Below are positions 33,060 to 50,856 of a stretch of 64,000 bases of DNA, one piece after another. The notes beneath the pieces were generated by a model. That model saw nothing but the letters and a program-made list of their open reading frames with translations, was not told the origin of the DNA and searched no databases. This DNA comes from Segetibacter koreensis DSM 18137 (GTDB lineage Bacteria > Bacteroidota > Bacteroidia > Chitinophagales > Chitinophagaceae): positions 1 to 64,000 of the forward strand of contig NZ_KB893359.1 of NCBI RefSeq assembly GCF_000374045.1, in the 5' to 3' direction. The position numbers and the translations under genes are program-made. Within the stretch, counting starts at the first letter, position 1; each line of letters begins with the position of its first letter.

Positions 33060-33124
33060 CAAAACTACCTCCTCTGCAAGCTAATTTAATTGACCGTAAT
33101 AATACAATTAAGTGATTCTGGTCA
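33060..33124 (-). promoter_or_regulatory. Tandem-palindrome activator promoter of hsp20 copy 1
   Basis: Distal palindrome TGATTCTGGTCA (33113-33124) and proximal TGACCGTAATAA (33091-33102), centres 22 bp apart. The -7 box TAGTTTTG (minus strand, 33060-33067) matches Bacteroidota TAnnTTTG exactly and is centred 33 bp below the proximal site. It is one of nine promoters with this geometry. Confidence 0.75.
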
Positions 33125-33145
33125 TATTAAAGCTCCCTTTAAAAA

Positions 33146-35134
33146 CTACTGCAAGGCAGCAGTTGGCACTTTTTGTATTGTTTGTGCCGCAGTCGTTTTC
33201 TCAGCGGCTCGTTTACCTAAAATATTTTCAAGGTCTTCTTTAAAAAGAACTTCTTTTTTTATTAAAAGCTCTGCCAGTTCAACTAGAAGGTCTTTGTTTT
33301 GCTGTAATATTTCTTTTGACCTGTCATATGCTCCTTCCACCAGTTTTCGAACTTCTTCATCAATTAGCTTTGCTGTTTCTTCACTGTATGGTTTTTGAAA
33401 ACCAGTATCCCGCTGACCAGTAGAATCATAGAAACTGATGTTGCCAATTTTTTTATTGAAGCCATAATACACTACCATCATGTATGCTTCCTTTGTTACT
33501 TTTTCCAGGTCATCCAAAGCTCCGGATGACACTTCGCCAAACATAACTTCTTCCGATGCCCGGCCGCCTAATGTGGCACACAAATGCTCTACGAAAGCAG
33601 ACTCAGTCCTTAATTGTTTTTCCTCTGGTAAATACCATGATGCACCTAAAGATTTACCTCTCGGAATGATGGATACTTTTACCAATGGATCAACCTGTTT
33701 CAATAACCAGCTAACGACAGCATGTCCGGCTTCGTGATAAGCAATTATTTTCTTTTCTTCAGGCGAAATGATTTTACTTTTCCTTTCAGCTCCCGCGACC
33801 ACTCTGTCAATTGCATCAAAAAAGTCCTGTTTTCCAATTTTCGCTTTTTTATTTCGCGCTGCAATTAAAGCAGCTTCGTTACAAATGTTGGCAATATCAG
33901 CACCTGAAAAACCAGGAGTTTGGGATGCAAGAAGTTCGACATCTATTGTTTCATCCAGTACAAGTGGGCGCAGATGAACTTTAAAAATCTCTTCCCGTTC
34001 TTTCAGGTTTGGAAGCTCCAGATAAATGTGCCTGTCAAACCTTCCGGGCCTTAGCAATGCCGGATCAAGCATGTCAGCACGGTTTGTAGCTGCCAACACA
34101 ATTACTCCACTATTGGTACCAAAACCATCCATTTCTGTAAGCAACTGATTTAAAGTACTTTCTCTTTCATCATTGTCACCTCCTATAAAAGCACCTTTAC
34201 CTCTCGACCTACCAATGGCGTCTATCTCATCAATAAAAATAATACACGGCGCCTTTTCCTTCGCTTTCTTAAATAAATCACGAACCCTTGATGCACCAAC
34301 CCCTACAAACATTTCGATAAATTCTGAACCTGAAATGGAAAAGAAAGGCACCTGGGCCTCTCCCGCAACAGCTTTTGCCAGTAATGTTTTCCCTGTCCCC
34401 GGCAACCCAACCAGTATCACACCCTTTGGAATTTTCGCCCCTAACTTTGTAAAAAACTCAGGTTTTTTTAAAAAATCGACAATCTCCTTCACTTCCATCT
34501 CAGCTTCTTCAAGCCCTGCTACATCATCAAAAGTTATGTTGCTTTTTTCCTTTTCAATTAAAGTAGCCGTAGATTTTCCAAAATTGAAAATAGAAGAGCC
34601 ACCACCGGTTCCCATACCACTTGCCCTGCCAAGTAAAAAATTCCATAGTACAAAAAGCAGGATGAAGGGAAGAATTGTACCCATAATATCCCAAAACCAA
34701 CTCCTCTTCTTTATATAACTCACATCAATTTTATCGTTTGCGGCAACATTTTTTTCAGCTTCATCTAATTTTCTCTCAAACGATTCGACTGATCCAATAT
34801 TAAAGGAATAATGTGGCCCCAAATTCAAGGCACTTCCAACTGGTCTTGTAAAAGCATCTTTAAATTGAGGATCATTAGCGAATTCTTTTTTAATGTACAC
34901 TTCCGCTTTTTCGTTGTTTATCACTACAATTTTCTCGACAGCCTTACGGCTTAGTATATCCTTTTGAAATTGTTGCCACGTTATTTCTTTTCCTTCTGAA
35001 GAAGGATTTAATATTGAGGGCAGCAGTATTATAGCAAGCATTAATAAATAAACCCACCAGTTAAACCACTTCTTTTTTGGTGGAACTTGCTGCTGCCTGC
35101 CTGGCTTTAAAGAGTTATTGCTGTTCTGACTCAT
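33146..35134 (-). CDS. ftsH: ATP-dependent zinc metalloprotease FtsH
   Basis: 662 residues. Two N-terminal membrane spans ([14 protein letters not shown] and [20 protein letters not shown]) flank a periplasmic domain. The AAA+ domain has Walker [14 protein letters not shown], Walker [14 protein letters not shown], the pore motif FVGVG, and second-region-of-homology Arg residues (RPGRFDRHI). The protease domain has [10 protein letters not shown] as the zinc site. FtsH degrades unstable membrane and cytosolic proteins. It ends 115 nt upstream of hsp20 copy 1. I found no tandem-palindrome promoter upstream, unlike its neighbours. It could be a stress paralogue or the only copy. Confidence 0.97.
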
Positions 35135-35269
35135 ACAATGGTGATAAAACCTATAAACTCAATTTTCATTACTACATTAAAAAAATATGTAACCGAATGT
35201 TTGGCTTAATAGAATGTCATAATTTGTTCGCTGTACCTCCAATTATTATTTCTTCAAACCTTATAACTT

Positions 35270-35320
35270 AACTATCAGTACAAAAACTATCAGTACAAAA
35301 ACCCTTTAGTACTGATAGTT
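35270..35320 (-). terminator. Terminator with a duplicated hairpin arm
   Basis: AACTATCAGTAC occurs twice (35270-35281 and 35285-35296) before its exact complement GTACTGATAGTT (35309-35320). On the minus strand the hairpin ends in TTTTTG, suiting termination of the PepSY-like gene that ends at 35362. Either left copy can pair with the right arm. Confidence 0.75.
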
Positions 35321-35361
35321 GGGTTAACCGTCAATGATTGTATGAGATAGTTTTATTGCTA

Positions 35362-35850
35362 TTATGATGCCTTTTTAAATTTGTTCACTTCTTCTAATTC
35401 ACCGTCTTCAACCCGTACCATCACGTAGTTTTTCAATCCCTCCAGGTTCACTACCCAAATATCCCGGTTAGATTCTTTTACGTTAAAAGCTCTCGTAATT
35501 TTAAATTCTTCATACGCTGATTGTATCTGTTGCCGTATTGCATCGGGAAGATTTTTTTCACTGCCGAAAGCGACGTCATATTTCAAGTAGCCATTTTTCT
35601 TAAAAAGTGCGTTATGATCCATATCATTCATAATAAATTTGGCTAGGTAATCTTTATCCTGCCTGTACCATTTGAGGTCCTGCGCGTCAGGAAATGATTT
35701 TCTAAAAGCCTTATTCACTTCTTTAGTAACCATGGCAGTAGAAGTAACTGTAACAGGTGCCAACTGAACAATTGAATCTTTTACCTGTGAAAACAATTCG
35801 GACAGGGGAAAAGCTAAAACCAACATGCAGATTAAAAGTTTCTTTTTCAT
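35362..35850 (-). CDS. Secreted PepSY-like (BLIP-fold) protein
   Basis: 162 residues with a signal peptide (KLLICMLVLAFPLSELFSQ). The mature protein looks like the putative PepSY-like/DUF2874 group: VNKAFRKSFPDAQDLKWYRQ followed by YLAKFIMNDMDHNALFKKNG, PDAIRQQIQSAYEEFKITRA and VVNLEGLKNYVMVRVEDGEL. Such proteins are periplasmic and often sit beside envelope-stress genes. Binding partners are unknown. It has its own tandem-palindrome promoter (35934-35998) and a terminator at 35270. Confidence 0.8.
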   Translation of the reverse strand: MKKKLLICMLVLAFPLSELFSQVKDSIVQLAPVTVTSTAMVTKEVNKAFRKSFPDAQDLKWYRQDKDYLAKFIMNDMDHNALFKKNGYLKYDVAFGSEKNLPDAIRQQIQSAYEEFKITRAFNVKESNRDIWVVNLEGLKNYVMVRVEDGELEEVNKFKKAS

Positions 35851-35933
35851 AAAAACATTTTTTTTTAATTAATAATAATAAACCCGTTGTTGTTGAGATA
35901 GTAAAAAACTCAATTACTTCTCTTTTACATTTA

Positions 35934-35998
35934 CAAAAAAACATCTATAAATTTTTCAAAAGAATGACGTACATCAGTATATATTATGATATAAATAA
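35934..35998 (-). promoter_or_regulatory. Tandem-palindrome activator promoter of the PepSY-like gene
   Basis: Proximal TGACGTACATCA (35965-35976), distal TGATATAAATAA (35987-35998), centres 22 bp apart. The predicted -7 position (35934-35941, minus strand TTTTTTTG) keeps the TTTG half but has TT for TA. Spacing to the proximal site is 33 bp, as in the other eight. Confidence 0.55.
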
Positions 35999-36171
35999 TA
36001 TGACTACCTATTCAAAGCCCATTGTTTCAACCTATTTTAAATAAAAAGCATACTTATATCTATTTTAGATGTTAAAAAATAGTGGTTAATATCAGTAAGT
36101 TTAATAACAAACCGCTTTTTGTTAGATACTATCGCTCTCTTTAGGCACAACCTATATCATGCTTTATGTAC

Positions 36172-36236
36172 TGCGTTACATCATACATCTTGATGATCAC
36201 GATCATTACGGAAAAGCCCAAGAAATCGTTGCTTTA
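36172..36236 (+). promoter_or_regulatory. Tandem-palindrome activator promoter of the outer-membrane protein gene
   Basis: Proximal TGATCACGATCA (36194-36205), flanked so that the palindrome extends to 5+4+5. The distal site TGCGTTACATCA (36172-36183) has one good half. The -7 box is TTGCTTTA (36229-36236). Spacings are 22 and 33 bp. The predicted RNA start near 36240 lies about 60 nt before the reading frame. Confidence 0.6.
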
Positions 36237-36298
36237 ACTTTTTTAGACTTAATTTTTTTTCCTCGAGATAAAGCGTCACAACGCACGCAACGAAATCA

Positions 36299-37057
36299 AT
36301 AAGAAAAAGAGCCAGTATCAAAATTTTATTCATAATTATTTTTCTGCCGTTTTACTTTTCATCAAATGCGCAAGTATTCATTGGAGCAAAAGCAGGCATT
36401 AGCATCCCCGACTTAAAGGGCAACAATGAGCAAAGCAAAGGATATACATCGCGCCGGGGAATCTATGCAGGTTTAGCGGTCAACTTCAAACTAACACCAT
36501 TAATTTCCCTACAGCCTGAAATCAATTTTTCTCCGCAGGGAGGACAACGTAGAGGCTTACAACCAGTGCCATCAGAAGCATTTAGAGGCACCGGTTTACC
36601 TCCCGGTACCGATTTATACGCCCGCTTTAAAAGTGAAACTATTTTAAACTATCTGGAAATCCCTTTATTAGCCAAACTGACATTTGGTACGAAGTTGAAA
36701 TATTACGCTTGTTTTGGTCCACACATTGCTTTTTTACTTCAGGCCAAAACCAAAACCAGCGGCAACAGCCTATTATATCTTGATCCATCTGGCAGTACTG
36801 CTCTGATGCAATATGGGTATGTGCTTCCACCTGTTTCTTTCAATAATACAGTAAATATTAAGGAAAGTATCAAAACTGTAAATGCTGGCATACAAGGAGG
36901 TGGAGGGCTACAATACCCTATCGGCCACGGAAATATTTTTTTCGAAGGCAGGGCTATTATAGGTCTTACCAATATACAAACACACCCTCAAACAGATGGA
37001 GAAAATAAAACCGGTTCTCTTGCCGCAGCAGTCGGTTATTTGTTAAAACTAAAATAA
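36299..37057 (+). CDS. Outer-membrane beta-barrel protein (PorT-like), no canonical start codon
   Basis: The frame is open from a stop at 36269 to 37057. It starts with a good signal peptide (KILFIIIFLPFYFSSNAQ) and continues with beta-barrel text: VFIGAKAGISIPDLKG, YAGLAVNFKLTPLISLQPEI, YLEIPLLAKLTFGTKLKYYA, GIQGGGGLQYPIGHGNIFFE and SLAAAVGYLLKLK. This is the PorT/outer-membrane beta-barrel (OMP_b-brl) type, about 250 residues. No ATG, GTG or TTG in any frame lies between the predicted RNA start (36240) and the signal peptide. An ATA at 36299 stands where the ATG should be. A GTG at 36566 would cut off the signal peptide and is not credible. It is either a start-codon mutation (pseudogene) or initiation at ATA. 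Confidence 0.75.
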   Translation: MRKRASIKILFIIIFLPFYFSSNAQVFIGAKAGISIPDLKGNNEQSKGYTSRRGIYAGLAVNFKLTPLISLQPEINFSPQGGQRRGLQPVPSEAFRGTGLPPGTDLYARFKSETILNYLEIPLLAKLTFGTKLKYYACFGPHIAFLLQAKTKTSGNSLLYLDPSGSTALMQYGYVLPPVSFNNTVNIKESIKTVNAGIQGGGGLQYPIGHGNIFFEGRAIIGLTNIQTHPQTDGENKTGSLAAAVGYLLKLK

Positions 37058-37081
37058 GCAAAAACCATATATACCGAAGAA

Positions 37082-37146
37082 TGACGACTGTCATTCGATA
37101 AAGTAACCTTCCTCATTGCTAATGGATACTGGATGAACTTATTTTG
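37082..37146 (+). promoter_or_regulatory. Tandem-palindrome activator promoter of the beta-helix membrane protein gene
   Basis: Distal TGACGACTGTCA (37082-37093) sits in a perfect 7+4+7 palindrome. The proximal position TAACCTTCCTCA (37104-37115) is degenerate. The -7 box is TTATTTTG (37139-37146). Spacings of 22 and 33 bp are kept. The leader to 37277 would be about 125 nt. Confidence 0.55.
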
Positions 37147-37276
37147 ATGAGGGATTATAAAAAAATTGGCAAAGCGGAATACATATTTAGCCTAAGAGTT
37201 GTGCGACGCAACCAAAGAAGAATAATAGTACAGCAAACAATTCATTTTAAAATCTACCACAAAAAAACAGAAGGAT

Positions 37277-38485
37277 ATGAAACAACTAATTTCACTCCTT
37301 TTGCTGTTAACTGTAATTAGTAACGCAAAAGCTTATCAAATAAAATCAGGTGATAATGTAGTAATTAACACCCCGTTTTACGACAATCTGTATGTAGCAG
37401 GCGGAACTGTTACTATAGATGCTCCCATTTATGGAGATCTGATAATAGCAGGTGGAAATATTACCATTAATGACAGTGTGGCTAATGATGTTTTATTGGC
37501 CGGTGGCACAGCCACAATAAATGGAAATGTAGGCGATGACATACGCTGCGCAGGCGGTCAAATGTATGTACGAAAAAATGTAGGAGGAGAACTTTTTGTG
37601 ACCGGTGGAAGAATAGAAATAGATAAGGATGTTATTGTAAACAAAGGATTGATGAGCAGTGGCGGCAATATAATTGTCAACGGCACGATCAAGGGAAATG
37701 CCAATGCTTTTGGTGGCAATATTGTTTTTAACGGGATTGCAGAAAAAGGACTGGATTGCCGCGGAGGACAAATAGAAATGAATGGTACAGTAATGGGTAA
37801 AACCATTCTGGCTGCCCAGCAAATTGCAATTGGCAATAATGCTTCATTTAATAATGATGTCCGTTATTGGGACAGGCGAGGAACGTTGGATTTTAGACAG
37901 TCAGTAAAAAACGGAAGTGCTATTTTCGATCCCTCTTTAAAAGTAACAAGCGGAGAATGGTATTTTTTTGGTTTTGCAACTATAATAGGTTTATTATGGT
38001 ACGTTGGTATGGCCCTGTTGATGATAGCACTTGTACAATATCTGTTTAGCCGCACAATGCAAAAATCAGCAGAAACTGTCTTTAACACCGCCGTCAAATC
38101 TGCAGGGTATGGGTTATTGTTTTTAATAAGTGTACCTATAGCCACAATTATATTAATGGTAACCGTGATTGGAATACCTATAGCAATTATGCTTGCATCT
38201 GCCTATATCATGCTAATTCTGCTGTCAACTGTTATTACTTCTGTTGTTGCTTCTAACTGGATCAATAACCGCTACAAATCTAACTGGAAATACAGGCATT
38301 TGGTCTTTACTGCCTTCGGTGTGTTTATAGTTCTTAAAGTAGTTTCATACACTCCGTTTTTTGGTCCTTTGGTAATGCTTGCATTAGTCTGTACTGCCTT
38401 TGGTGCTATTTTATTGAACATCAACTGGAAAAGAAAACAACAAAACAATATTGTACATGAAGAACCAATAGAATATGCAACTTAA
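37277..38485 (+). CDS. Bactofilin-like beta-helix protein with C-terminal membrane domain
   Basis: 402 residues. A signal peptide (LISLLLLLTVISNAKA) precedes a right-handed beta-helix of about ten short turns. The turns repeat a G-x-V/I-x-A/C-GG-x-V/I-x-I/V pattern: YVAGGTVTIDAPIYGDLIIA, GGNITINDSVANDVLLAGG, GGQMYVRKNVGGELFVTGGR and GGNIIVNGTIKGNANAFGGN. After about residue 235 come four hydrophobic spans (FGFATIIGLLWYVGMALLMI, LLFLISVPIATIILMVTVIG, IMLASAYIMLILLSTVITSV, FGPLVMLALVCTAFGAILL). The helix resembles bactofilins but is exported, with the spans in the inner membrane. Function is unknown. It has a stress-type promoter at 37082. Confidence 0.8.
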   Translation: MKQLISLLLLLTVISNAKAYQIKSGDNVVINTPFYDNLYVAGGTVTIDAPIYGDLIIAGGNITINDSVANDVLLAGGTATINGNVGDDIRCAGGQMYVRKNVGGELFVTGGRIEIDKDVIVNKGLMSSGGNIIVNGTIKGNANAFGGNIVFNGIAEKGLDCRGGQIEMNGTVMGKTILAAQQIAIGNNASFNNDVRYWDRRGTLDFRQSVKNGSAIFDPSLKVTSGEWYFFGFATIIGLLWYVGMALLMIALVQYLFSRTMQKSAETVFNTAVKSAGYGLLFLISVPIATIILMVTVIGIPIAIMLASAYIMLILLSTVITSVVASNWINNRYKSNWKYRHLVFTAFGVFIVLKVVSYTPFFGPLVMLALVCTAFGAILLNINWKRKQQNNIVHEEPIEYAT

Positions 38486-38519
38486 TGATAGATATTTAAT
38501 ATGATTTATATTTCATCAT

Positions 38520-38552
38520 AAGAGTCGCCATAAAAAATAAGTGGCGACTTTT
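38520..38552 (+). terminator. Rho-independent terminator after the beta-helix gene
   Basis: AGTCGCCA (38523-38530), an 11-nt loop, TGGCGACT (38542-38549), then TTTCTTT. Located 38 nt after the stop. Confidence 0.85.
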
Positions 38553-38668
38553 CTTTCTCAATTTGTTAGTTCAATTAGCAATATATCATTAGGGAAAGAC
38601 ATCATCAATTAATACATATCATATAAAAAAACAGTTGAAATACTATTAATCGACCTCCGGCTATTAAT

Positions 38669-39751: not shown

Positions 39752-39791
39752 TGGCACCCTTTAAAACTTAAGAAGTTTCTTTATAAAAACT

Positions 39792-40613: not shown

Positions 40614-40653
40614 ACAAATAATTTTACAAGGTCTCGTAAGCAAAAGCAACTCA

Positions 40654-40694
40654 ATTAAAAACCCCTGCCAGTTTTAGTAGCAGGGGTTTTTAAT
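40654..40694 (-). terminator. Strong terminator after hsp20 copy 2
   Basis: ATTAAAAACCCCTGC (40654-40668) and GCAGGGGTTTTTAAT (40680-40694), a 15-bp perfect stem with an 11-nt loop. It has T-runs in both directions and lies 14 nt after the hsp20 stop. Confidence 0.93.
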
Positions 40695-40707
40695 CCACCA
40701 GATGCGC

Positions 40708-41154
40708 TTACTGTACAGCAATTTGTTTATTCGATGCAGTCTTTTTAACTTCTTCTTTCTTAGGCAATATAAGTTGCAATACGCCATCAGTATAAGAAGC
40801 TGCAATACTATCTTTGTTTACATCTTCAGGCAGGGTGAAGCTGCGTGAGAACGAAGAATAATTATATTCTCTACGTGTAGATTTACCCTCTTTTTCTTCT
40901 TTTTCTTCTTCCTTTTCTGAACTGATAGCAATCATATTCCCCTCGACGTCTATTTTGAAATCTTCTTTCTTTAAACCAGGTGCCGCTACTGAAACTTTGT
41001 ATTCTTTTTCATTTTCAGCAATATTTACAGCGGGTACGGTAACTGTACCGGGAAAGATGCTCTCTTTATCGAACCATTCGTTCCAGGGTTTGAAAAAATC
41101 ATCAAATACAGATGGAAATGTGCGTGTAGGTCTTGTTAATGCATTCGTTGCCAT
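40708..41154 (-). CDS. Hsp20/alpha-crystallin family small heat-shock protein (copy 2)
   Basis: 148 residues. The N-terminus (MATNALTRPTRTFPSVFDDF, FFKPWNEWF) and the alpha-crystallin domain (VPAVNIAENEKEYKVSVAAP, GLKKEDFKIDVEGNMIAIS, SFTLPEDVNKDSIAASYTDG, VLQLILPKKEE) are those of classic bacterial Hsp20. A Lys/Glu-rich loop (EKEEEKEEKEGKSTRREYNY) sits mid-domain. It is monocistronic, with a complete tandem-palindrome promoter including a -33 TTG, and a strong terminator. Together with copy 1 it gives two Hsp20 chaperones under one proposed regulator. Confidence 0.96.
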   Translation of the reverse strand: MATNALTRPTRTFPSVFDDFFKPWNEWFDKESIFPGTVTVPAVNIAENEKEYKVSVAAPGLKKEDFKIDVEGNMIAISSEKEEEKEEKEGKSTRREYNYSSFSRSFTLPEDVNKDSIAASYTDGVLQLILPKKEEVKKTASNKQIAVQ

Positions 41155-41191
41155 AACTTTTGGTTTTAAATGAAAAAATTATTTTCGATAA

Positions 41192-41256
41192 CAAATCTAT
41201 CTTTTACAACACCATAAAGCAACGTCTGAGGTCAGTATGAGGGGTGAGTTAAATCA
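41192..41256 (-). promoter_or_regulatory. Tandem-palindrome activator promoter of hsp20 copy 2
   Basis: -7 box TAGATTTG (41192-41199) and -33 TTG (41220-41222) match the Bacteroidota primary promoter with 20 nt between. The proximal site CGTCTGAGGTCA (41223-41234) has one good half and abuts the -33 element. The distal site TGAGTTAAATCA (41245-41256) is 22 bp away. The proximal centre is near -40, as for a class II activator. Confidence 0.75.
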
Positions 41257-41387
41257 GTATTTATATGATCGTTTACACAACTGCTTTAATCCTTGAAAGT
41301 TTGCTGGTAAATTTTTAGCCAAAGAAAAAAAAGGCATTACAGCTAAAAAAGGCATCATGAACTGTGGAGTAGAGGATACATTTCTAA

Positions 41388-41825
41388 TTACTTCATCAAC
41401 ATGTTATCATTCTCATTAGATAAATCGACTGATGAAGGCGTTACGTTGACATTGCTATTTTTTGTATCTAATCCTTTTTTAATGGTTATAAGAAGCTCTT
41501 CCTTTGTAAAAGGTTTTTGCAAATATTCATTCGCTCCTTTTATTAAATTTCTTTGAACCTCTGGGCAAAAAGAACCAGCAGAAAAAAAGATGAGAGGAAT
41601 ATTACGAACAGTATCATCCTCTTTAGCCAACTTCAAAAAAAAGCTACCATCTGTTTCAGGCATCATCATATCGCAAAGAATAAGGTCGGGTTGATAACTT
41701 TTTGCCAATTCAAATCCTGCCCTTCCGTTCTCTGCCACAAGCACAGTATAGTTATTTAGCAAAAGCAGCTCTTCAGTATTTTCTCTTATTTCAGCATTAT
41801 CTTCTATAATCAATATCTTTTCCAT
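41388..41825 (-). CDS. Single-domain response regulator (CheY-like)
   Basis: 145 residues. The receiver domain has acidic residues Glu8/Asp9, phospho-acceptor Asp52 (LCDMMMP), Ser82 and Lys104 (LQKPF). After about residue 118 only a Ser/Asn-rich tail follows, with no output domain, so signalling must go by protein contact. It lies 208 nt downstream of the PAS histidine kinase, on the same strand and after it in coordinate order only. Its promoter (41834-41898) is its own. The predicted RNA start is about 5 nt before the ATG, a nearly leaderless message. Confidence 0.94.
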   Translation of the reverse strand: MEKILIIEDNAEIRENTEELLLLNNYTVLVAENGRAGFELAKSYQPDLILCDMMMPETDGSFFLKLAKEDDTVRNIPLIFFSAGSFCPEVQRNLIKGANEYLQKPFTKEELLITIKKGLDTKNSNVNVTPSSVDLSNENDNMLMK

Positions 41826-41833
41826 CTATCAAA

Positions 41834-41898
41834 CAAAGCTATTTGTTAGATGAAAAAATAGATATGAGTTTAATCAGAGTGATGAATAATTATAAGCA
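41834..41898 (-). promoter_or_regulatory. Tandem-palindrome activator promoter of the response regulator gene
   Basis: -7 box TAGCTTTG (41834-41841, minus strand) matches consensus exactly. Proximal TGAGTTTAATCA (41865-41876) closely resembles a site of hsp20 copy 2. Distal TAATTATAAGCA (41887-41898) is degenerate. Spacings are 22 and 33 bp. Confidence 0.65.
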
Positions 41899-42033
41899 GG
41901 AATTAATATAGCGTTTTATACTAAGGGATGATCCTATTGTTTGATGGCTGTTTTTAAAGGCAGCATTTATTGCTAAGGAAAGAAAAGTTGTGTACTGCCT
42001 GCTTTCACCCCGTTTGTGAAGTAAACAAGCGTC

Positions 42034-43665
42034 TTAAATGTTCGAAATATCAGGATTAATAACCTGTGAAGAATCTGCATTTATACGAGCGGGAAATTCG
42101 ACCGTAAAAGTTGAACCTTCATTTTCTTTGCTCAAAAAATAGATATCTCCCTCCAGTAGTTCAACATATTTTTTTACAATGTTTAATCCGAGCCCAGTGC
42201 CTTGTATATTAATTGTATTGTTTGCCCTGAAAAATTTGGAGAACATATCCTTTTGAGCCTCTAAAGGAATACCAATACCTTCATCGCGTATAGAAATAAA
42301 AACTTTTTCGCCTTTTTTATCTACTGTAATATAAATTTCCTTTTCTTCCGGAGAATACTTGACTGCGTTTGAAAGAAGATTTAATAATACATTTCTAAGT
42401 ATTTTTTTATCCTGCAGCACTTCTTCAGGCGGGCCATTGTACATGTACCTGATTTGCTGTTTTTTCTTCTGCAACATGCCATCCATTTCTTCAATAATAT
42501 CCTCCATAAACTCATGAAGATTAAAATTGATACTTTTAACTTCAACCTTACCTTGCTCGAGCTTGTCTAATGAAAGGAAATTGTTAAGTATGTCTGTGAG
42601 GTTTCTCACCGAGGACTTAATACGTTCTATATGCTTGCGCCGTTTCTCATCGTGCTCAGGGTCTATATAATGTTCCACTAATCCGACACTTGAAAGGATA
42701 GCGCTTAAAGGTGTTCTGAATTCATGTGAGGCCATGGAAACAAAACGAGATTTCAGTTCACTTAATTCCTTTTCACGCTCCAGCGCTTCTGTCAATTCGA
42801 GTGTTCTTTCTCTTATTTTCTTCTCAAGACCTTCATTGATCCGCGTGATTTGCTCTTCGGCAAGTTTACGTTGTGTAATATCTGATCGTATGGCCAGGTA
42901 CTGGTAAGGCTGTTCGTTTTCATCTAAAAAAGGAATGATGGTAGTGTCTACCCAATAAAACGACCCATCCTTTGCCTTGTTTTTTAGTTCGCCTCTCCAT
43001 ACTTTGCCTGTAGTAATTGTTTCCCAGAGATCACGAAAAAATGCTTTAGAATGATAGCCGGAGTTGATGATGCGGTGGTCCTGCCCGATTAACTCCTCTT
43101 TGCCGTATTTAGATATTTTACAGAAATTGTCATTGACATATTTTATTACTCCTTTTTGATCAGTAATTGCTACAATTGACGCTTCATCTATTGCATGCCT
43201 ATAATCCAGCACTTCAGATTTGCTTCTCTGCAACTGCACCCTAAGTTCTGAATTAAGTCTTTTAATTTCTTCTTCCGCTTTTCTTCGTCTTGTCATATCA
43301 CGCGTCACCTTTCCAAATCCAATGAGTTTTCCCCTCGAATCTTTTAGCGCTGTGAATACAACATTTGCCCAAAACACGGAGCCGTCTTTACGAACCCGCC
43401 AACCCTCATCTTCAACCTTGCCCAATTCTTTCGCCATTTTCAAGTTCTGCTCGTGATGCCGATTTTTGAAGTCTTCCTTCGTGTAAAAAATCGAGAAATG
43501 TTTACCGATTATTTCACTTTCGGTATAGCCTTTAATTTGTTCTGCTCCTTTATTCCAGCTAATTATATAGCCATCGGGATCAATCATAAAAATTGCATAA
43601 TCCTTTACGTTTTCCACCAAAAGCCTATAACTAGCCTGATCTATTTGAGGATATTCTTTTATCAT
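42034..43665 (-). CDS. PAS-PAS hybrid-less sensor histidine kinase, soluble
   Basis: 543 residues with no membrane span, so probably cytoplasmic. PAS1 (about 10-130: YAIFMIDPDGYIISWNKGAE, then GYTESEIIGKHFSIFYTKED) and PAS2 (about 155-268: ASIVAITDQKGVIKYVNDNF, GYHSKAFFRDLWETI) are followed by a coiled coil, a HisKA domain with His314 (MASHEFRTPLSAIL) and an HATPase domain (N box NLLSNAVKYS, G boxes RDEGIGIP and GTGLGLNIV). It senses an internal cue, possibly redox or ligand, and likely signals to a receiver such as the one at 41388. No tandem-palindrome promoter was found upstream. The 286-base gap to prs shows nothing else. Confidence 0.95.
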   Translation of the reverse strand: MIKEYPQIDQASYRLLVENVKDYAIFMIDPDGYIISWNKGAEQIKGYTESEIIGKHFSIFYTKEDFKNRHHEQNLKMAKELGKVEDEGWRVRKDGSVFWANVVFTALKDSRGKLIGFGKVTRDMTRRRKAEEEIKRLNSELRVQLQRSKSEVLDYRHAIDEASIVAITDQKGVIKYVNDNFCKISKYGKEELIGQDHRIINSGYHSKAFFRDLWETITTGKVWRGELKNKAKDGSFYWVDTTIIPFLDENEQPYQYLAIRSDITQRKLAEEQITRINEGLEKKIRERTLELTEALEREKELSELKSRFVSMASHEFRTPLSAILSSVGLVEHYIDPEHDEKRRKHIERIKSSVRNLTDILNNFLSLDKLEQGKVEVKSINFNLHEFMEDIIEEMDGMLQKKKQQIRYMYNGPPEEVLQDKKILRNVLLNLLSNAVKYSPEEKEIYITVDKKGEKVFISIRDEGIGIPLEAQKDMFSKFFRANNTINIQGTGLGLNIVKKYVELLEGDIYFLSKENEGSTFTVEFPARINADSSQVINPDISNI

Positions 43666-43951
43666 AAAGTCAGTCTATTAAGAATTTGAAAAAAATAGAA
43701 CTTCAATACTCACATTGCCATTTAAAAGCAGATGATTTTACAATTGATTATAAAATTACAGAATTTAACTTTATAACAAAATTGTATTATTTGTTCGTTT
43801 TTGATTATTAACTATTCATGAGTTGTCATCGTTGTTCCATTATGGTTTCTTTTAACTGCATCTGGCTAACTAACAATACCCATTCTTCATAATGTATTTT
43901 TAAATAGTCTTTTTAAACAACTGGCATAACAATTAGCCTGGATAATATTAT

Positions 43952-44923: not shown

Positions 44924-45014
44924 AAAATACTAAAGTTGGCTAAATAAATAAATGCATACTCAATTTCATCGTCATTTGCTTGTTTTACAGAGGTCCAAAA
45001 GGAATGATTACAAA

Positions 45015-45794
45015 TCAAAAAGCGATAAAAAATGGATTCTTAGGATCAGGTTTGTTATAGACTAGTTCTGTTTTTAAATCTGTATGATACACTCCCCGGT
45101 TGGAAGCATTTAAAATAGCATGGGCAGCAGCGGTATCCCATTCCATAGTTGTTCCCAATCTCGGGTATATGTCGGCCTGATTTTCAAGCAGCAACATAAA
45201 CTTAAGGGCACTGCCCATTGACTTTAGTGTAACATTTCCAAATTGATTTATAAAATCTATTGTTTCTTTTGATAGATGTGACCTGGATGCTACTGCTGTT
45301 AAATGTTCTTTTCGCAACAGCTCATCAAACTTCTTTCTTTCAGATAACGGTTTAAACTCAATTTGTTTTCCTTTTTCTTTTTTGAACACTCCTGTTTCAT
45401 TTGAACCGACGTATAGAATATCCATGCAAGACACATATATTACACCTGCTATCGGCTTGTTATTTCTTACTAATGCAATATTAATTGTAAACTCTCCATT
45501 TTTATTAATGAACTCTTTCGTTCCATCAAGTGGGTCTATTAGCCAGAAGTGCTCCCAGTTTTTTCTTTCATCAAAGTCAATACTTACCCCTTCTTCCGAA
45601 AAAACCGGCAAATTTGTTTTAGAAAGATGTTTATGTATGGTGGAATGGGATCTTTTATCAGCAATTGTTATAGGAGTTTCATCTGGCTTCAGTTCTGCTA
45701 AAAATGTCTCAGACAAGTAGACATCCATAATTACTTTACCCGCCTCAAGTGCTGCAAGTTGTGCTACATCTAATAAGTGCCGGACATCGTCCAT
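45015..45794 (-). CDS. cysQ: 3'(2'),5'-bisphosphate nucleotidase CysQ
   Basis: 259 residues of the inositol-monophosphatase fold. Metal-binding motifs are present: Glu in PVFSEEGVSI, DPLDGTKEFINKNGEFTINI, and WDTAAAHAIL in the C-terminal half. CysQ hydrolyses PAP to AMP and phosphate, relieving inhibition in sulfur assimilation and of RNases. It is transcribed away from the hpf operon. The regulatory pair at 46007-46040 lies in the shared 306-base divergent region and could affect it, but the geometry favours hpf. Confidence 0.94.
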   Translation of the reverse strand: MDDVRHLLDVAQLAALEAGKVIMDVYLSETFLAELKPDETPITIADKRSHSTIHKHLSKTNLPVFSEEGVSIDFDERKNWEHFWLIDPLDGTKEFINKNGEFTINIALVRNNKPIAGVIYVSCMDILYVGSNETGVFKKEKGKQIEFKPLSERKKFDELLRKEHLTAVASRSHLSKETIDFINQFGNVTLKSMGSALKFMLLLENQADIYPRLGTTMEWDTAAAHAILNASNRGVYHTDLKTELVYNKPDPKNPFFIAF

Positions 45795-46006
45795 TTTCGT
45801 TTTGCTTTATACACTTTGCTACTTACACAGCAGCAATAACAAGGTTTATACTAATAAAAATAAAACTATTCTGCAATACTTACTTGGGTAAAAGGCCTAT
45901 CAGGTATTTTGTAGAATAAACATAAAACTATTAGGAGTAAATAGTTATTTTGAAAACTGATCATCAGAATTTATAGGATTAACTTAAAAAATACAAAGGC
46001 GACAAG

Positions 46007-46071
46007 TGACAACGGTCAGTATTTCCTGTGATGGGTGTCATAAGAAGATGAATTAACGTATGATAGCTTTA
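46007..46071 (+). promoter_or_regulatory. Tandem-palindrome activator promoter of the hpf operon
   Basis: Two full matches to TGAY-N4-RTCA: TGACAACGGTCA (46007-46018) and TGATGGGTGTCA (46029-46040), centres 22 bp apart. The -7 box TAGCTTTA (46064-46071) is centred 33 bp below the proximal site. The leader to the ATG at 46101 would be about 26 nt. Confidence 0.8.
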
Positions 46072-46100
46072 TGATTTTATTAATAAAATCGTAAAAGAAA

Positions 46101-46403
46101 ATGATCTTACATATTGAAACTCCGCATTTCGAATCGGATACAAGCCTTGAAGAACTTATACGTTCAAAATTTGAACATTTGGACAAATTATATCAGCGAA
46201 TTGAAAATATTGATGTAGTACTGCGAAAAGTTAATGATGACCATGATAGAAACTGCGAAATAGAAGCAAAGCTATTGGTGCCTAAAAAAACACTGTTTGC
46301 CACAGAGCGCGAAGAAACATTTGAAGAAGCCTTACGAAAAGTAATAAACGATGTAGAGCATCAGTTACGAAAACATAAGGAAGAACTTAATGAAAAAAGA
46401 TAA
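46101..46403 (+). CDS. hpf: HPF/RaiA-type ribosome hibernation factor (short form)
   Basis: 100 residues. The family begins with ILHIETPHFESDTSLEELIR and has the core FEHLDKLYQRIENIDVVLRK, NCEIEAKLLVPKKTLFATER and FEEALRKVINDVEHQLRKHK. Short HPF proteins bind the 30S decoding site and help 100S dimers form, silencing ribosomes in starvation or hypoxia. It heads an operon with a 58-codon frame and a CoA-transferase gene, under a strong tandem-palindrome promoter. Confidence 0.92.
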   Translation: MILHIETPHFESDTSLEELIRSKFEHLDKLYQRIENIDVVLRKVNDDHDRNCEIEAKLLVPKKTLFATEREETFEEALRKVINDVEHQLRKHKEELNEKR

Positions 46404-46566
46404 CTATATTATCGATAGTTATTGCACACAAAAATTATTAACTTATTGTAGTCTTGGTTTTGACCGTTGGTTGAGAAGTATTAGATGGCGTATAAGTGGT
46501 AAGCTACCAGCATGGGTAGAAATTATCGATTATAAATATTTTGGCAAAAGAAGTATTAGCCGATGA
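46390..46566 (+). CDS. Small hypothetical protein between hpf and the CoA-transferase gene
   Basis: 58 codons. It starts at an ATG inside the end of hpf (14-nt overlap) and ends in TGA overlapping the ATG of the next gene in the ATGA form. This is the pattern of a translationally coupled operon gene. The product is basic (KKDNYIIDSYCTQKLLTYCS, LGFDRWLRSIRWRISGKLPA, WVEIIDYKYFGKRSISR), with two Cys and four Trp or aromatic clusters. No family was recognised. The tight overlaps at both ends are the main support. Confidence 0.55.
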   Translation: MKKDNYIIDSYCTQKLLTYCSLGFDRWLRSIRWRISGKLPAWVEIIDYKYFGKRSISR

Positions 46567-47849
46567 AAATGACTGTTAATTATACAAATGCCTGGGATGC
46601 CTTATCTATTATTCATTCCGGAAACAGGGTGTTTATACAGGGAAGTGCACAAACACCCTCTTTTTTATTGAAAGAACTTGCAAAGGGGGCAAGTCGTTTT
46701 AAAGATGTTGAATTGGTCTTCATCTCTGTGTATGGAGATCTCGAAGTGGATAAACCGGAATATGCAAACAATTTTCGTATTAACTCCCTGTTTGTATCTG
46801 CAGCAGTCCGTAATGCAGTTTGTGAGGGAAGGGCGGATTACGTGCCTGTTTTTTTAAGTGAAATACCCAATCTTTTTGCTCAAAATATTTTACCTGTAGA
46901 TGTTGCATTGGTACAGGTTTCGCCACCTGATAAACATGGCTATTGCTCTTTAGGTTTATCTGTTGACATTGCGCGATCGGCCGTCAACAATGCAAAATAT
47001 GTAATTGCACAGGTAAATCCCCATGTACCCAGAACGCATGGCGATGGTCTTATTCACTGCAGTCGCTTCTATGCGATGGTTACCTGTGATGATCCGCTTT
47101 ATGAAGCGAATCTAAGCATAGAAGAAACAAAAGAGGAATTAAGGATTGGCGAGTATGTAGCCAGCTTAATTGAAAACAGAAGCACATTGCAAACAGGCAT
47201 TGGAACGATACCTAACGCTGTACTAAAATCATTAACCAATCATAAAGACTTAGGTATTCATACAGAAATGTGCTCAGATGGGGTTATTGATTTAATTGAG
47301 AAGGAAGTAATTACGAATAAGTATAAAAAAATTCATCCTAACAAAGCAGTAACAGCTTTTGCTTTAGGTACGCGAAAGTTATACGATTATGTGGATGACA
47401 ATCCTTTTTTCCAGTTTTTAGATATTGATTATGTAAATGACCCTAATGTAATTTGCCGAAATAATAAAATGGTGGCTATAAACAGTGCTATTGAAATTGA
47501 TATAACAGGGCAAATTTGTTCTGATTCTATTGGTACTTATCAGTTTTCTGGTGTGGGCGGGCAAATGGATTTTATAAGAGGCGCTTCACTAAGCGAAGGA
47601 GGTAGGCCTATTATTGCCTTGCCATCGCGCACAGCTAAAGGCATTGCCCGCATTGTTGCTACTTTAAAGCCTGGTGCAGGAGTAGTTACAACAAGAGCTC
47701 ACGTACATTACGTAGTAACAGAATATGGCATTGCTTATTTATTTGGCAAAAACCTCAGACAGCGTGCTAAAGCCCTGATTAATATCGCCCACCCTGAAGA
47801 TAGGGAAACATTGGAAAAAGCTTGTTTTGAACGCTTTAAAGTATTTTAA
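46563..47849 (+). CDS. Acetyl-CoA hydrolase/CoA-transferase family protein
   Basis: 428 residues. The two-domain fold of butyryl-CoA:acetate or 4-hydroxybutyrate CoA-transferases and acetyl-CoA hydrolases is seen: VALVQVSPPDKHGYCSLGLS, LQTGIGTIPNAVLKSL, GIHTEMCSDGVIDLIE, GVGGQMDFIRGASLSEGGRP and TTRAHVHYVVTEYGIAYLFG. The likely catalytic Glu lies in the TEMCSDG segment. Such enzymes move CoA between acids and release acetate when respiration is limited. Third in the hpf operon, it links energy metabolism to ribosome silencing. The exact acid pair is not predictable. Confidence 0.92.
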   Translation: MKMTVNYTNAWDALSIIHSGNRVFIQGSAQTPSFLLKELAKGASRFKDVELVFISVYGDLEVDKPEYANNFRINSLFVSAAVRNAVCEGRADYVPVFLSEIPNLFAQNILPVDVALVQVSPPDKHGYCSLGLSVDIARSAVNNAKYVIAQVNPHVPRTHGDGLIHCSRFYAMVTCDDPLYEANLSIEETKEELRIGEYVASLIENRSTLQTGIGTIPNAVLKSLTNHKDLGIHTEMCSDGVIDLIEKEVITNKYKKIHPNKAVTAFALGTRKLYDYVDDNPFFQFLDIDYVNDPNVICRNNKMVAINSAIEIDITGQICSDSIGTYQFSGVGGQMDFIRGASLSEGGRPIIALPSRTAKGIARIVATLKPGAGVVTTRAHVHYVVTEYGIAYLFGKNLRQRAKALINIAHPEDRETLEKACFERFKVF

Positions 47850-48072
47850 CTGCCTTTTTGGTTATTTGTATTTACATCATTATGCAACTTAATGCTTCAA
47901 TGCTGATTAAGGACTCTCCATTCTAACTCATCCTATAAGTTTTTATAATTGATGTTCATATCGACTCCGGCATTGAAGTAAATTTATTCGTTTTTTCATT
48001 TTTCCTACATGCGCTTTTATTATCCATTTGATTGTTTTGGTTGAGATAGATTAGTGTTCCTGCAATAATTAT

Positions 48073-48137
48073 TGACCCATATCATAATCATCAGTGATTG
48101 CTATCATCATCTTAATGAAAGAACAGAAGTAGCTTTA
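48073..48137 (+). promoter_or_regulatory. Tandem-palindrome activator promoter upstream of the second hpf-type gene
   Basis: Two full matches: TGACCCATATCA (48073-48084) and TGATTGCTATCA (48095-48106), 22 bp apart. The -7 box TAGCTTTA (48130-48137) is 33 bp below and identical to that of the hpf operon. The next annotated gene begins 250 nt later, so either the leader is long or the small frame at 48175 is the first gene. Confidence 0.75.
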
Positions 48138-48174
48138 AGCAATCTGTTAACCTATGCCTTAAAATCAGGCAGCG

Positions 48175-48279
48175 ATGACCCCTTTTTCATACACGACTAA
48201 ATCAGGTCTTATAAAAAACATCAAAAGCGATTTACTTAAACAGGTTGTCATTAATGGAAGTACTTATTTTTTCTGGTAA
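48175..48279 (+). CDS. Putative 34-residue small protein after the stress promoter
   Basis: ATG at 48175, 38 nt after the -7 box, with 34 codons to TAA. It begins MTPFSYTTKSGLIKNIKSDL and ends GSTYFFW. It is a possible first gene of the transcript that reaches the hpf-type gene at 48387. No family was recognised, and support is limited to position. The rest of the 537-base gap (47850-48386) shows no other gene. Confidence 0.3.
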   Translation: MTPFSYTTKSGLIKNIKSDLLKQVVINGSTYFFW

Positions 48280-48386
48280 TGGGTAATCCTATTCTGAACC
48301 TGTTAAGTATCTTATGCGACGAGCAAGGTGACCGGAAGCAGAATAAAAATTTATTTAAAATTAGCTAACAATTTAAATCTTCAGTT

Positions 48387-48716
48387 ATGAATATTGAATT
48401 TCATACACCTCATGGAGAGGTTAAGGAATGGGTAATCAACTATGTAAAAGACGAATTAATAGAGTTGTATCACCGAGATAACGAGATTAAAAGAGCAGAG
48501 GTATATTTCAATGAGCAAACAGACGGCCTCACACGTTATCAAGTGTGCGAAATTGATCTGGCAATATATGGAGAAATGCTTATTGTGGAGCGAAAGGCTG
48601 ACAGCTATGATCAAGCAGTGCGCGATGCGCTCAAAGAGTTAAGTGAAAAAGTGGATGAACAGATAAGAATACGAAACAGACTACTTGATGAAATAACCAG
48701 CACAGTAAAGGTGTAA
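48387..48716 (+). CDS. HPF/RaiA-like protein (second copy)
   Basis: 109 residues. The fold of the HPF/RaiA (sigma-54 modulation) family is suggested by MNIEFHTPHGEVKEWVINYV, IKRAEVYFNEQTDGLTRYQV, CEIDLAIYGEMLIVERKADS and YDQAVRDALKELSEKVDEQI. The EVYF..., C.I.L.IYG....V...A..Y..AV..A..EL....... pattern matches the strand-strand-strand-helix part of RaiA. It probably binds ribosomes too, perhaps under different stress. Its terminator overlaps its own stop codon (48708). Confidence 0.85.
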   Translation: MNIEFHTPHGEVKEWVINYVKDELIELYHRDNEIKRAEVYFNEQTDGLTRYQVCEIDLAIYGEMLIVERKADSYDQAVRDALKELSEKVDEQIRIRNRLLDEITSTVKV

Positions 48717-48733
48717 GAAAAGTCTTACACCTT
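48708..48733. terminator. Bidirectional terminator between convergent genes
   Basis: AAGGTGTAAGA, loop AAAG, TCTTACACCTT: an 11-bp perfect stem between the convergent hpf-type gene and the baeRF3 gene. It includes the hpf-type stop codon and lacks long T-runs. Confidence 0.7.
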
Positions 48734-48763
48734 AAGGTCGAATTTGTTCGCGGAAATGACTTC

Positions 48764-49894
48764 TTAATACCGTGTAATAAGGGCTATGTGTTGATGAGCG
48801 GCAAGCGCGCCATTTGCTACTAGTGTTACTTCCTCATCCTTTTCTAATGCTGTTTCAATAAGTGTATTTACGGCATCAGGCAGTATTGTATAATCTTCTC
48901 TAACAGGATGCAGGTATAAATTGTAATCATCATTTTTTATTAAAAAACCAGAGAGCCTAAAATCTTTTTCTACTAACAATTTTAAACCCCTACCCTCTTT
49001 TACCGCTTTCCAGATGTCTGTAATTCCGGCAATTCCGTGTCGTTGTCCAATTTTTTCTTCAAATTCCCTGACCAGTTTCTGTTTGGCTTCATCAAGGAAT
49101 GCTCTCATTGCTTCCCATGTTAATGCCGCCAATTCTTTTAATGGCATATAAGTATAATTTCCGTGCATTTCGCCTGCAATATTTTTGTGCTTTGTTATAT
49201 TGTTGAAATAAGATACATCCTTGTTCGCTCCTGCTACTATCAGGCAAGTATTATCAGTAACATAAGTATTCAATACCTCGTCTGCCTGTTGTAAGAAATC
49301 CTCATAACGCATTTCTTCAAGTTGTGATTTATCTCTTTCAAATTCCTTTGTAAAAGCATTACCAACGTAAGATGACCCGCGTGAAGGCCGGTTATATTCA
49401 TAATCATCTTCGTGCTTCATTGGAAAATGAACATCATTAATTTCCTCAAGAGCATTCAACTTTCCCTTATACAGTTTTGCTTCTTTTTCGGTTAAAAGCA
49501 ATACCAAATAGGGTTGTAAGTAATAATCCTGGTATAACAAATCCCTGATCTCAAAGGAATCTGTAATAATTACCTTTTCTTCTACCGGAAAAAAGAACTG
49601 AACCTGTTGTTTGAAGTTGGGAGAAACAAACAACCCGATTCCTTCCGCATTGTGATCGAAATCAATTTGCCCATATAATTGATCAAGTGATTCAATCAGG
49701 GGCTTTATCTCATCTTTTTCGTATTTATATTGCAAATATTCTTTCGCCTTATTAACCATTCTTTCAACTTCTACAGGATCTGCTCTTCTTTCAGGCGACA
49801 GCCTGTGGGTGGGAACGATAATGGAAATACAGATTTTTCCTTTCTCCTTTTGCATTCCAACTAATTCTTCTCGTGTTAAATAATCGGTTTTCAT
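48764..49894 (-). CDS. baeRF3-type (bacterial eRF1 domain-like) protein
   Basis: 376 residues. The central and C-terminal parts look like the baeRF group, bacterial relatives of archaeal/eukaryotic release factor 1: CISIIVPTHRLSPERRADPV, NAEGIGLFVSPNFKQQVQFF, YLVLLLTEKEAKLYKGKLNA, CLIVAGANKDVSYFNNITKH and TLVANGALAAHQHIALITRY. Family members are predicted from their domains to act on ribosomes or nascent chains. It is second in an operon with the universal stress protein (52 nt), driven by the promoter at 50792. Confidence 0.85.
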   Translation of the reverse strand: MKTDYLTREELVGMQKEKGKICISIIVPTHRLSPERRADPVEVERMVNKAKEYLQYKYEKDEIKPLIESLDQLYGQIDFDHNAEGIGLFVSPNFKQQVQFFFPVEEKVIITDSFEIRDLLYQDYYLQPYLVLLLTEKEAKLYKGKLNALEEINDVHFPMKHEDDYEYNRPSRGSSYVGNAFTKEFERDKSQLEEMRYEDFLQQADEVLNTYVTDNTCLIVAGANKDVSYFNNITKHKNIAGEMHGNYTYMPLKELAALTWEAMRAFLDEAKQKLVREFEEKIGQRHGIAGITDIWKAVKEGRGLKLLVEKDFRLSGFLIKNDDYNLYLHPVREDYTILPDAVNTLIETALEKDEEVTLVANGALAAHQHIALITRY

Positions 49895-49946
49895 ATGAAA
49901 GTTGTTTTCAATATCTTAATATTTTTTTTCGAAGGGGATTCATTTA

Positions 49947-50777
49947 TTAATAATGGGCAACAAAAACAGGCAAGCTGGTAGTTCTTCCATTATCCTCCGC
50001 ATCATTTTCAAAAAATGACGCAAGCAATCCTCTTCCAAAAGCGCCCATCACAACAAAGTCATTTTTCTTTTTAAGCAGGTAATTAAAAAAGGCTTCGGTT
50101 ACATCTCCTTCCAGGCGGACAAATTCAACATCGTGGTAGTGGTATGTGAGCCATGCTGTAACCGTTTGCACTTCTTCAGGGCCAATTTCGCTTTCAGCGT
50201 TTAAATCAATTATCTTGACTCTTTTGTTTTTAAACTCAGGAAATAAATAGGTAAACTGTTTAATAGCAAATACTGATGATTTACTTCCACTATAACAAAA
50301 CACTATATTGTCGATACTGCTAAAAGTTTGTGGAGCGATAACTACAGGACACTCAGCATTGTTTAATATATCTTTTACAAACCGTGTGGGCAAACCTTCA
50401 TACATTCCCGAAAATGACGTTCTTGCATCAACAATCAATATATCCGCAAATCTCGTTTTGCTTATAATATCAATTTCCGGTATACCATTATCAACTTCAA
50501 CAAAAGCCTTCACGCCTTCCTGCCCGGCCATATGCTTAAACAGGCGAATATTTGCATCTCTAATAGCAATATTATCTTCAATGGATTCGGTGATCGAAAT
50601 AGATTCGACCGAGGTTGTTTCTTCCGTCTGACTAATCACTATTTCCTTTGCAATAACAATGTTTTCGAGGAAAATACCAGTAAGTTTTGAATTGGTGAGC
50701 CGCGTAAGATAACAGGCAAAGCGAACTGCATTGGCATCTACGTTCTGGCTATCGATAGCTAGTAATATCTTTTCCAT
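49947..50777 (-). CDS. Universal stress protein, tandem UspA domains
   Basis: 276 residues from the ATG at 50777 (MEKILLAIDSQNVDANAVRF). The longer frame to 50816 is rejected because its ATG lies upstream of the -7 box at 50792-50799, so it would not be in the mRNA. Two Usp-like halves are seen, the first ending ADILIVDARTSF and the second FVVMGAFGRGLLASFF. The GxxGR type ATP motif is partial. Usp proteins aid survival in growth arrest or low oxygen. It forms an operon with the baeRF3 gene. Confidence 0.92.
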   Translation of the reverse strand: MEKILLAIDSQNVDANAVRFACYLTRLTNSKLTGIFLENIVIAKEIVISQTEETTSVESISITESIEDNIAIRDANIRLFKHMAGQEGVKAFVEVDNGIPEIDIISKTRFADILIVDARTSFSGMYEGLPTRFVKDILNNAECPVVIAPQTFSSIDNIVFCYSGSKSSVFAIKQFTYLFPEFKNKRVKIIDLNAESEIGPEEVQTVTAWLTYHYHDVEFVRLEGDVTEAFFNYLLKKKNDFVVMGAFGRGLLASFFENDAEDNGRTTSLPVFVAHY

Positions 50778-50791
50778 AAAAAGTGTTTCAA

Positions 50792-50856
50792 TAAAGGTAT
50801 TGTTCCACTTTTCCATTGTTTATGATTGCCATCATCATCACTACTGATTCACATTA
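50792..50856 (-). promoter_or_regulatory. Tandem-palindrome activator promoter of the usp-baeRF3 operon
   Basis: Proximal TGATTGCCATCA (50823-50834) sits in a 5+4+5 palindrome. Distal TGATTCACATTA (50845-50856) has one mismatch, 22 bp away. The -7 box TACCTTTA (minus strand, 50792-50799) is 33 bp below the proximal site. The predicted RNA start near 50788 gives an 11-nt leader. Confidence 0.75.

Follow-up and report, generated by a model that had tools for sequence, protein, structure and literature searches.

A genome-wide set of fixed tandem operators in Segetibacter koreensis, with a receiver-CRP fusion as candidate regulator

The stretch analysed here, termed the window, comprises the first 64,000 nucleotides of contig NZ_KB893359.1 (C46) of Segetibacter koreensis DSM 18137, whose genome amounts to 6.1 Mb in 73 contigs. 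Between positions 33060 and 50856 the window carries a series of promoter elements of 65 bp, each composed of two 12-mer palindromes followed by a -7 box, and the initial annotation had proposed that nine such elements share one fixed layout. All nine are indeed present (9/9), with centre spacings of exactly 22 bp between the palindromes and 33 bp between the proximal palindrome and the -7 box. For the five minus-strand genes, the 12-mers originally given are plus-strand letters; the distal one therefore has the larger coordinate and the -7 box has to be read as its reverse complement, which leaves the geometry unaffected. The elements and the signalling genes among them are listed below, mismatches being counted against the scan pattern TGAN6TCA-N10-TGAN6TCA-N23-TANNTTTR.

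33060-33124 (minus strand): tandem operator and -7 box of hsp20-1 (gene 32585-33031, Hsp20 by Pfam); 1 mismatch
35934-35998 (minus strand): tandem operator and -7 box of the gene for a 162-residue protein (35362-35850) without Pfam match, initially annotated as PepSY-like; 2 mismatches
35965-36029 (plus strand): the PepSY-like operator read on the opposite strand, a possible divergent promoter; 3 mismatches, matrix score 21.1
36172-36236 (plus strand): tandem operator and -7 box of a gene for an outer-membrane beta-barrel protein (OMP; PF13568) ending at 37057; 2 mismatches
37082-37146 (plus strand): tandem operator and -7 box of the gene for a 402-residue protein (37277-38485) without Pfam match; 2 mismatches
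41192-41256 (minus strand): tandem operator and -7 box of hsp20-2 (gene 40708-41154, Hsp20); 2 mismatches
41388-41825 (minus strand): receiver-only response regulator (Pfam Response_reg), 48% identical over 112 residues (blastp) to the receiver of the REC-CRP fusion described below
41834-41898 (minus strand): tandem operator and -7 box of the receiver-only gene; 2 mismatches
42034-43665 (minus strand): PAS-PAS histidine kinase (Pfam), upstream of the receiver-only gene
46007-46071 (plus strand): tandem operator and -7 box of hpf (gene 46101-46403, Ribosomal_S30AE); 0 mismatches
48073-48137 (plus strand): tandem operator and -7 box of hpf-2 (gene 48387-48716, Ribosomal_S30AE slightly below the Pfam cut-off); 0 mismatches
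50792-50856 (minus strand): tandem operator and -7 box of usp (gene 49947-50777, Usp); 1 mismatch
28963-29058 (both strands): weaker tandem operator upstream of 24440-28834 (minus strand); 3 mismatches and matrix score 17.5 each way

The window targets identified by Pfam are accordingly Hsp20, hpf, Usp and receiver genes. The OMP frame is open from about 36290 and has a signal-peptide-like start and no ATG, and in hsp20-2 half of the proximal 12-mer is degenerate. The usp box lies upstream of its gene because the usp start is the ATG at 50777 and not the longest-frame start at 50816. The PAS-PAS kinase (42034-43665) was found to have no site of its own in the window pattern scan.

With up to three mismatches, the window contains the pattern 12 times, compared with a mean of 0.36 and a maximum of 2 over 100 shuffled versions, so that the spaced motif is not as frequent in shuffled DNA. 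These 12 consist of the nine elements of the initial annotation, the plus-strand PepSY-like reading (35965) and both readings of the 28963-29058 operator. A weight matrix built from 18 sites located elsewhere in the genome ranked the nine elements as its top nine in the window, with scores of 22.6-35.4, and 60 simulated versions of the window (first-order Markov) reached at most 21.2; since the training sites had been chosen with the initially annotated pattern, this test addresses the window sites and not the pattern. Across the whole genome, TGAN6TCA pairs 0-30 bases apart number 36 versus 10 in the control, and 14 of the 36 have the N10 spacing, every other spacing occurring at most three times. 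The total for palindrome to TANNTTTG at N10-36 (53) is barely above that of the reversed control (45), with exactly N23 in 11 of these 53 palindrome-to-TANNTTTG pairs (counted by hand).

The regulon extends well beyond the nine promoters to which it was originally assigned, while its fixed architecture is retained: at up to two mismatches the whole genome contains 53 sites versus 4 for the reversed pattern (96 matches versus 22 at up to three), and sites occur in many other Bacteroidota too. Many of the genome sites are clustered, e.g., at C73:116-185 kb and C46:28-51 kb. In a target survey covering 49 of the 53 sites, a called gene start was found within 350 nt downstream of 41 sites and of none of the remaining 8, the OMP element among them, and three of the 49 overlap an open reading frame (ORF) call. 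Targets identified by Pfam in this genome include a CcoN-CcoO fusion (ccoN and ccoO being above the NCBIfam cut-offs), a FixI-like metal ATPase, FixH, a di-haem cytochrome c peroxidase, a PLD-type cardiolipin-synthase-like protein, an AMP-binding enzyme, a nitroreductase, a phosphoribosyltransferase and a pyridoxamine-oxidase-like protein; five Usp matches, one of them slightly below the Pfam cut-off, also lie beyond the window. Sites thus precede the ccoNO, FixI-like ATPase and FixH genes, i.e., targets of the FixK-regulon type, whose control by these operators is predicted; the cco and fix genes represent the classical FixK target set (PMC7888657, PMC4999443).

Three genes of the genome encode CRP-type helix-turn-helix (HTH) proteins above cut-off; two further CRP-HTH matches under the cut-off were read as GntR-type and AraC-type and dropped. 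One of the three, designated REC-CRP (C73:130638-131693, outside the window), combines a receiver, a cyclic-nucleotide-type (cNMP) fold and a Crp HTH in one 351-residue chain (Pfam), with PF00027 and PF13545 both above cut-off. Its gene sits inside the C73 site cluster, a PAS histidine kinase gene lies directly upstream and overlaps its start, and beside it lie a NosZ gene and the cytochrome c gene that precedes NosZ.

The same association is observed around REC-CRP genes of other genomes. Eighty named loci (L110-L189; 1.44 Mb), derived from Segetibacter, Limnovirga, Lacibacter, Chitinophaga and many uncultured bacteria, contain 222 sites at up to two mismatches versus 0 for the reversed pattern, with at least one site in 73 of the 80, while 20 further REC-CRP loci (307 kb) contain 45 sites distributed over 18 of them (three pairs of locus ids, L091/L112, L094/L144 and L096/L122, each share one genome). 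No site was found in the surroundings of FNR-like genes in ten of those 20 genomes (160 kb), nor in ten arbitrary stretches (160 kb). Both spacings are sharply preferred in the named loci, the 222 sites at N10/N23 comparing with 1 at N9, 10 at N11, 55 at N22 and 31 at N24, and the 160 sites retained at up to one mismatch comparing with 0, 6, 9 and 8, respectively. Furthermore, a gene start lies within 350 nt downstream of 148 of these 160 sites (median 44.5 nt), and just 2 of the 160 fall inside ORFs of more than 120 residues, so that the motif is not as frequent in coding DNA either. Kinases account for 16 of the 148 downstream genes, a pattern suggestive of self-control.

At a larger scale, at least one site is present in 188 of 198 genomes of the order. 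The presence test was based on 57 of these, i.e., 27 with at least 16 sites and 30 with 0-1, the 141 in between being excluded. A fusion, called by an open frame of at least 336 residues, was found in 27/27 site-rich versus 9/30 site-poor genomes (Fisher 7e-9; ancestry and genome size uncorrected); both domains were read through in 21 of the 27 (S. koreensis and 20 further loci), frame length being the sole basis in six (G114, G120, G100, G195, G161 and G165). Across the phylum, a fusion-length match at 1e-30 occurs in 20 of 158 genomes, the 113 genomes without a match having been left out of the site scan. Outside the order, 13 fusion genomes have a median of 5 sites versus a median of 1 in the 19 listed non-fusion genomes (p 0.002; ancestry uncorrected), in a comparison that leaves out the shorter-frame genomes G302, G268 and G218 (11, 6 and 3 sites, respectively).

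The consensus derived from the 160 sites is [AC]TGAY-N4-RTCA[TG] twice, followed by TAnnTTTG. The outer T/A pair of FNR and FixK boxes is not preferred, TTGA-N6-TCAA occurring in 7 distal and 5 proximal palindromes of the 160 sites, and TTTG is present in the -33 zone of only 10 of the 160. In Flavobacterium psychrophilum, TAnnTTTG has been mapped to -12 to -5 (PMC9723704). On this box position, the dimer centres that the initial annotation had put at about -40 and -62 would shift to -41.5 and -63.5, and the proximal centre compared below with class II promoters is calculated from that mapping. A -7 box stands on both sides of 39 operators in the 80 named loci. Owing to the symmetry of the operator, two divergent promoters may share a single copy; two-way operators are also seen in the S. 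koreensis genome itself, e.g., at C24:144224/144255 and C73:152172/152203.

The supposition that an FNR/CRP-family dimer occupies the two sites, two helical turns apart, appears sound as regards the family and less so as regards FNR itself, which is not the best candidate because the outer T/A is not preferred and because no sites surround FNR-like genes. The features of REC-CRP are consistent with a CRP/FNR-type output under receiver control. Its structure model (mean predicted local distance difference test score, pLDDT, 85) retrieved CRP and FNR chains among its top Foldseek hits, but the whole-chain TM-scores are low and the comparison contributes little beyond the Pfam assignment. Of the 117 matches to sequences of solved structures, the best 60 include none that covers both REC-CRP domains over full length. 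In an alignment of 101 REC-CRP rows, in which the S. koreensis protein is counted twice (as in the 81 kinase rows below), the putative phospho-acceptor Asp52, Lys104 and Thr/Ser82 are each conserved in 101/101, as are, in the recognition helix, Glu316 and Arg320, the counterparts of the residues that read the TGA core in E. coli CRP and FNR. Ile319, conserved in 99/101 rows, presumably occupies the position at which FNR has the serine reading the outer T. At the positions of the Glu and Arg that contact cyclic AMP (cAMP), aligned via the match to M. tuberculosis CRP, Tyr209 and Tyr218 are found in 93/101 and 94/101 rows, and control of REC-CRP by cAMP was rejected on the ground that these contact positions are mostly Tyr. 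Judged by the number of its Cys residues, the CRP part likewise lacks a cysteine cluster of the FNR N-terminal type, with no Cys in 73/101 rows and a maximum of three.

A kinase gene lies upstream in 80 of 100 REC-CRP loci by a motif test. The PAS domain of the S. koreensis kinase matches the FixL haem domain (1d06) at 1.4e-18 and also matches DosP, and the FixL haem-His position is a His in 80 of 81 kinase rows.

Based on these data we consider it probable that the tandem elements serve as activator operators in a regulon for low oxygen and survival that spans the genome, and whose regulator is the REC-CRP fusion together with its FixL-like PAS kinase, the programme being apparently a low-oxygen one. 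In such a system the kinase would respond to a change in oxygen, or in another haem ligand such as nitric oxide (NO), and would be released at low oxygen to phosphorylate Asp52 in the REC-CRP receiver. Phosphorylated dimers would then bind the two palindromes, whose 22-bp distance places them on the same helical face. At approximately -41.5, the proximal dimer would replace the missing -33 box and make class II contacts with the polymerase. The distal dimer (-63.5) would supply cooperativity or a class I contact, and the polymerase would open the promoter at the sigma-A box TAnnTTTG. It may be speculated that the receiver-only protein (41388-41825), itself encoded behind a site, drains phosphate from the system.

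A number of observations weigh against this proposal. The association tests behind it ignore ancestry and genome size. Only 41/81 kinase rows have Arg at the position of the distal arginine of FixL, and a PAS domain with a conserved His need not bind haem, the His alone being no proof. The motif test found no upstream kinase in 20 of the 100 REC-CRP loci, and in S. koreensis itself no site at up to two mismatches directly precedes the kinase gene, the nearest preceding the usp gene upstream. The nosZ site has three mismatches, a level at which the control is high (22 versus 96 matches in this genome). Seven of the 80 named loci lack a site, including that of the closest relative (L110; a locus of only 12.4 kb). 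The fusion is also present in the 9 site-poor genomes mentioned above, and an FNR-like orthologue (standalone, E <1e-40) is likewise commoner in site-rich genomes (14/27 versus 1/30). Among individual genomes, G342 and G319 have a fusion and no site, and G308 a fusion and two sites; conversely, sites occur in G220 (three of them at 0-1 mismatch), where no fusion is found at 1e-30, and G302 and G268 have sites and only shorter-frame relatives of the fusion.

Four rival explanations were considered. The most serious, if unlikely, is that the regulator is the same REC-CRP protein and the signal a different one, the kinase sensing NO, redox state or starvation instead of oxygen. In a Pfam tally covering 108 of the 148 downstream genes (the 40 longer than 700 residues being left out), the targets include Rrf2 (7), hemerythrin (6) and ScdA_N (5) members, as is characteristic of responses to NO and redox stress, NosZ and its cytochrome gene adjoin the fusion, and haem binding is a prediction in a kinase in which the FixL arginine is not conserved. 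Against this, the best PAS matches, FixL and DosP, are named oxygen sensors, and cbb3 oxidase and fixH are among the targets. Less probable still is ownership of the boxes by another CRP-family protein, be it a standalone REC-CRP relative, the third CRP-type gene (C57:108.7 kb; examined by family scans only) or paralogues sharing the box. Many site-rich genomes have several CRP-type genes, single sites adjoin standalone genes in G129 and G335, and the sites of G302 and G268 would be accommodated; the density of sites around REC-CRP genes and the presence of the fusion in every site-rich genome argue otherwise.

The standalone FNR-like protein (C24:181 kb), acting as a direct iron-sulphur oxygen sensor as initially supposed, is a distinctly improbable owner. 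The distribution of its orthologue favours it, as does an N-terminal Cys cluster recognized by reading, but the orthologue is absent (E above 1e-40) from 13/27 site-rich genomes, no site surrounds its gene either in the 160 kb from ten genomes or in 18 kb of the S. koreensis genome, and the outer T/A of an FNR-class box is not preferred. The neighbour of the FNR-like gene (C24:174001-192000, L050) resembles, on reading, a uroporphyrinogen-III methyltransferase gene. Finally, that the spacing is an artefact of selecting loose palindromes is hardly credible: several half-sites are degenerate and were picked by eye, but 0/100 shuffles reach 12 matches, the named loci yield 222 sites against none for the reversed pattern, and the N10 and N23 optima are sharp.

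The proposed REC-CRP system resembles rhizobial FixL-FixJ-FixK in its FixL-like PAS kinase, receiver, CRP/FNR-type output, cco/fix targets and TGA-N6-TCA core (PMC7888657, PMC4999443). It differs in that the outer TTGAT-N4-ATCAA pair is lacking, two operators stand at a fixed distance and the promoter is of the Bacteroidota sigma-A type; moreover, with receiver and CRP output joined in a single chain, there is no separate FixJ step. The FNR/FnrN anaerobox regulons, for which an FnrN-dependent small heat-shock gene is described (PMC11784457), share with it the core spacing, the CRP/FNR fold and targets of the low-oxygen type, Hsp20 among them, whereas the CRP part of the fusion is without Cys in most rows (by a simple Cys count) and the outer T/A is not preferred. 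With E. coli CRP at class II and tandem promoters, the likeness lies in a proximal site at -41.5 that replaces the upstream core element and a second site upstream on the same face; the differences lie in the Tyr residues found in most rows at the cAMP-contact positions and in the distal site at -63.5. The mycobacterial DosS/DosT-DosR dormancy regulon is alike in its haem-type sensor kinase (predicted here) and in its Hsp20, Usp, nitroreductase, phosphoribosyltransferase and hibernation-factor targets; unlike REC-CRP, DosR has a LuxR/NarL-type and not a CRP/FNR-type output. In titles and the beginnings of abstracts, no receiver-CRP fusion governing a low-oxygen regulon of Bacteroidota was found, nor any paper on 'REC-CRP' together with 'response regulator'; an earlier listing of the receiver and CRP domain pair is possible because two older surveys of response-regulator outputs (Galperin) were outside the search.

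On a broader level, we tentatively suggest, at somewhat less than even odds, that a FixL-type kinase with a receiver-CRP/FNR fusion may constitute the master low-oxygen and dormancy switch in much of the Bacteroidota. The three-step FixL-FixJ-FixK cascade would here be collapsed into two proteins acting on an obligatory two-dimer operator (22-bp and 33-bp spacing) able to drive two divergent promoters, while the receiver-only paralogue could drain phosphate and reset the switch. The analysis names a candidate regulator with its sensor, operator and targets through which Bacteroidota would respond to low oxygen, a scheme that can be tested in culturable Chitinophaga; its scan pattern also detects the regulon in uncultured genomes. 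It furthermore offers a candidate natural example of a CRP/FNR activator governed by a receiver. For the phylum, whose sigma-A promoters are unusual, it suggests a rule in which a tandem operator takes the place of the -33 box. If the sensor is FixL-like, soil bacteria would place chaperones, universal stress proteins, ribosome hibernation and high-affinity respiration under one switch.

A baeRF-family (archaeo-eukaryotic release factor-like) protein is encoded among the stress genes of the window (48764-49894, minus strand), and a second one is encoded behind a site at C73:154846-155889 (minus strand); proteins of this family may form part of the hibernation arm of the regulon. Elsewhere in the window, positions 1355-8123 (minus strand) hold a lanthipeptide-type cluster consisting of a peptidase C39 ABC transporter, a full-length LanB-like dehydratase and a LanC-like cyclase (Pfam), and positions 53092-53475 (plus strand) encode a 127-residue bacterial SET-domain protein (Pfam).

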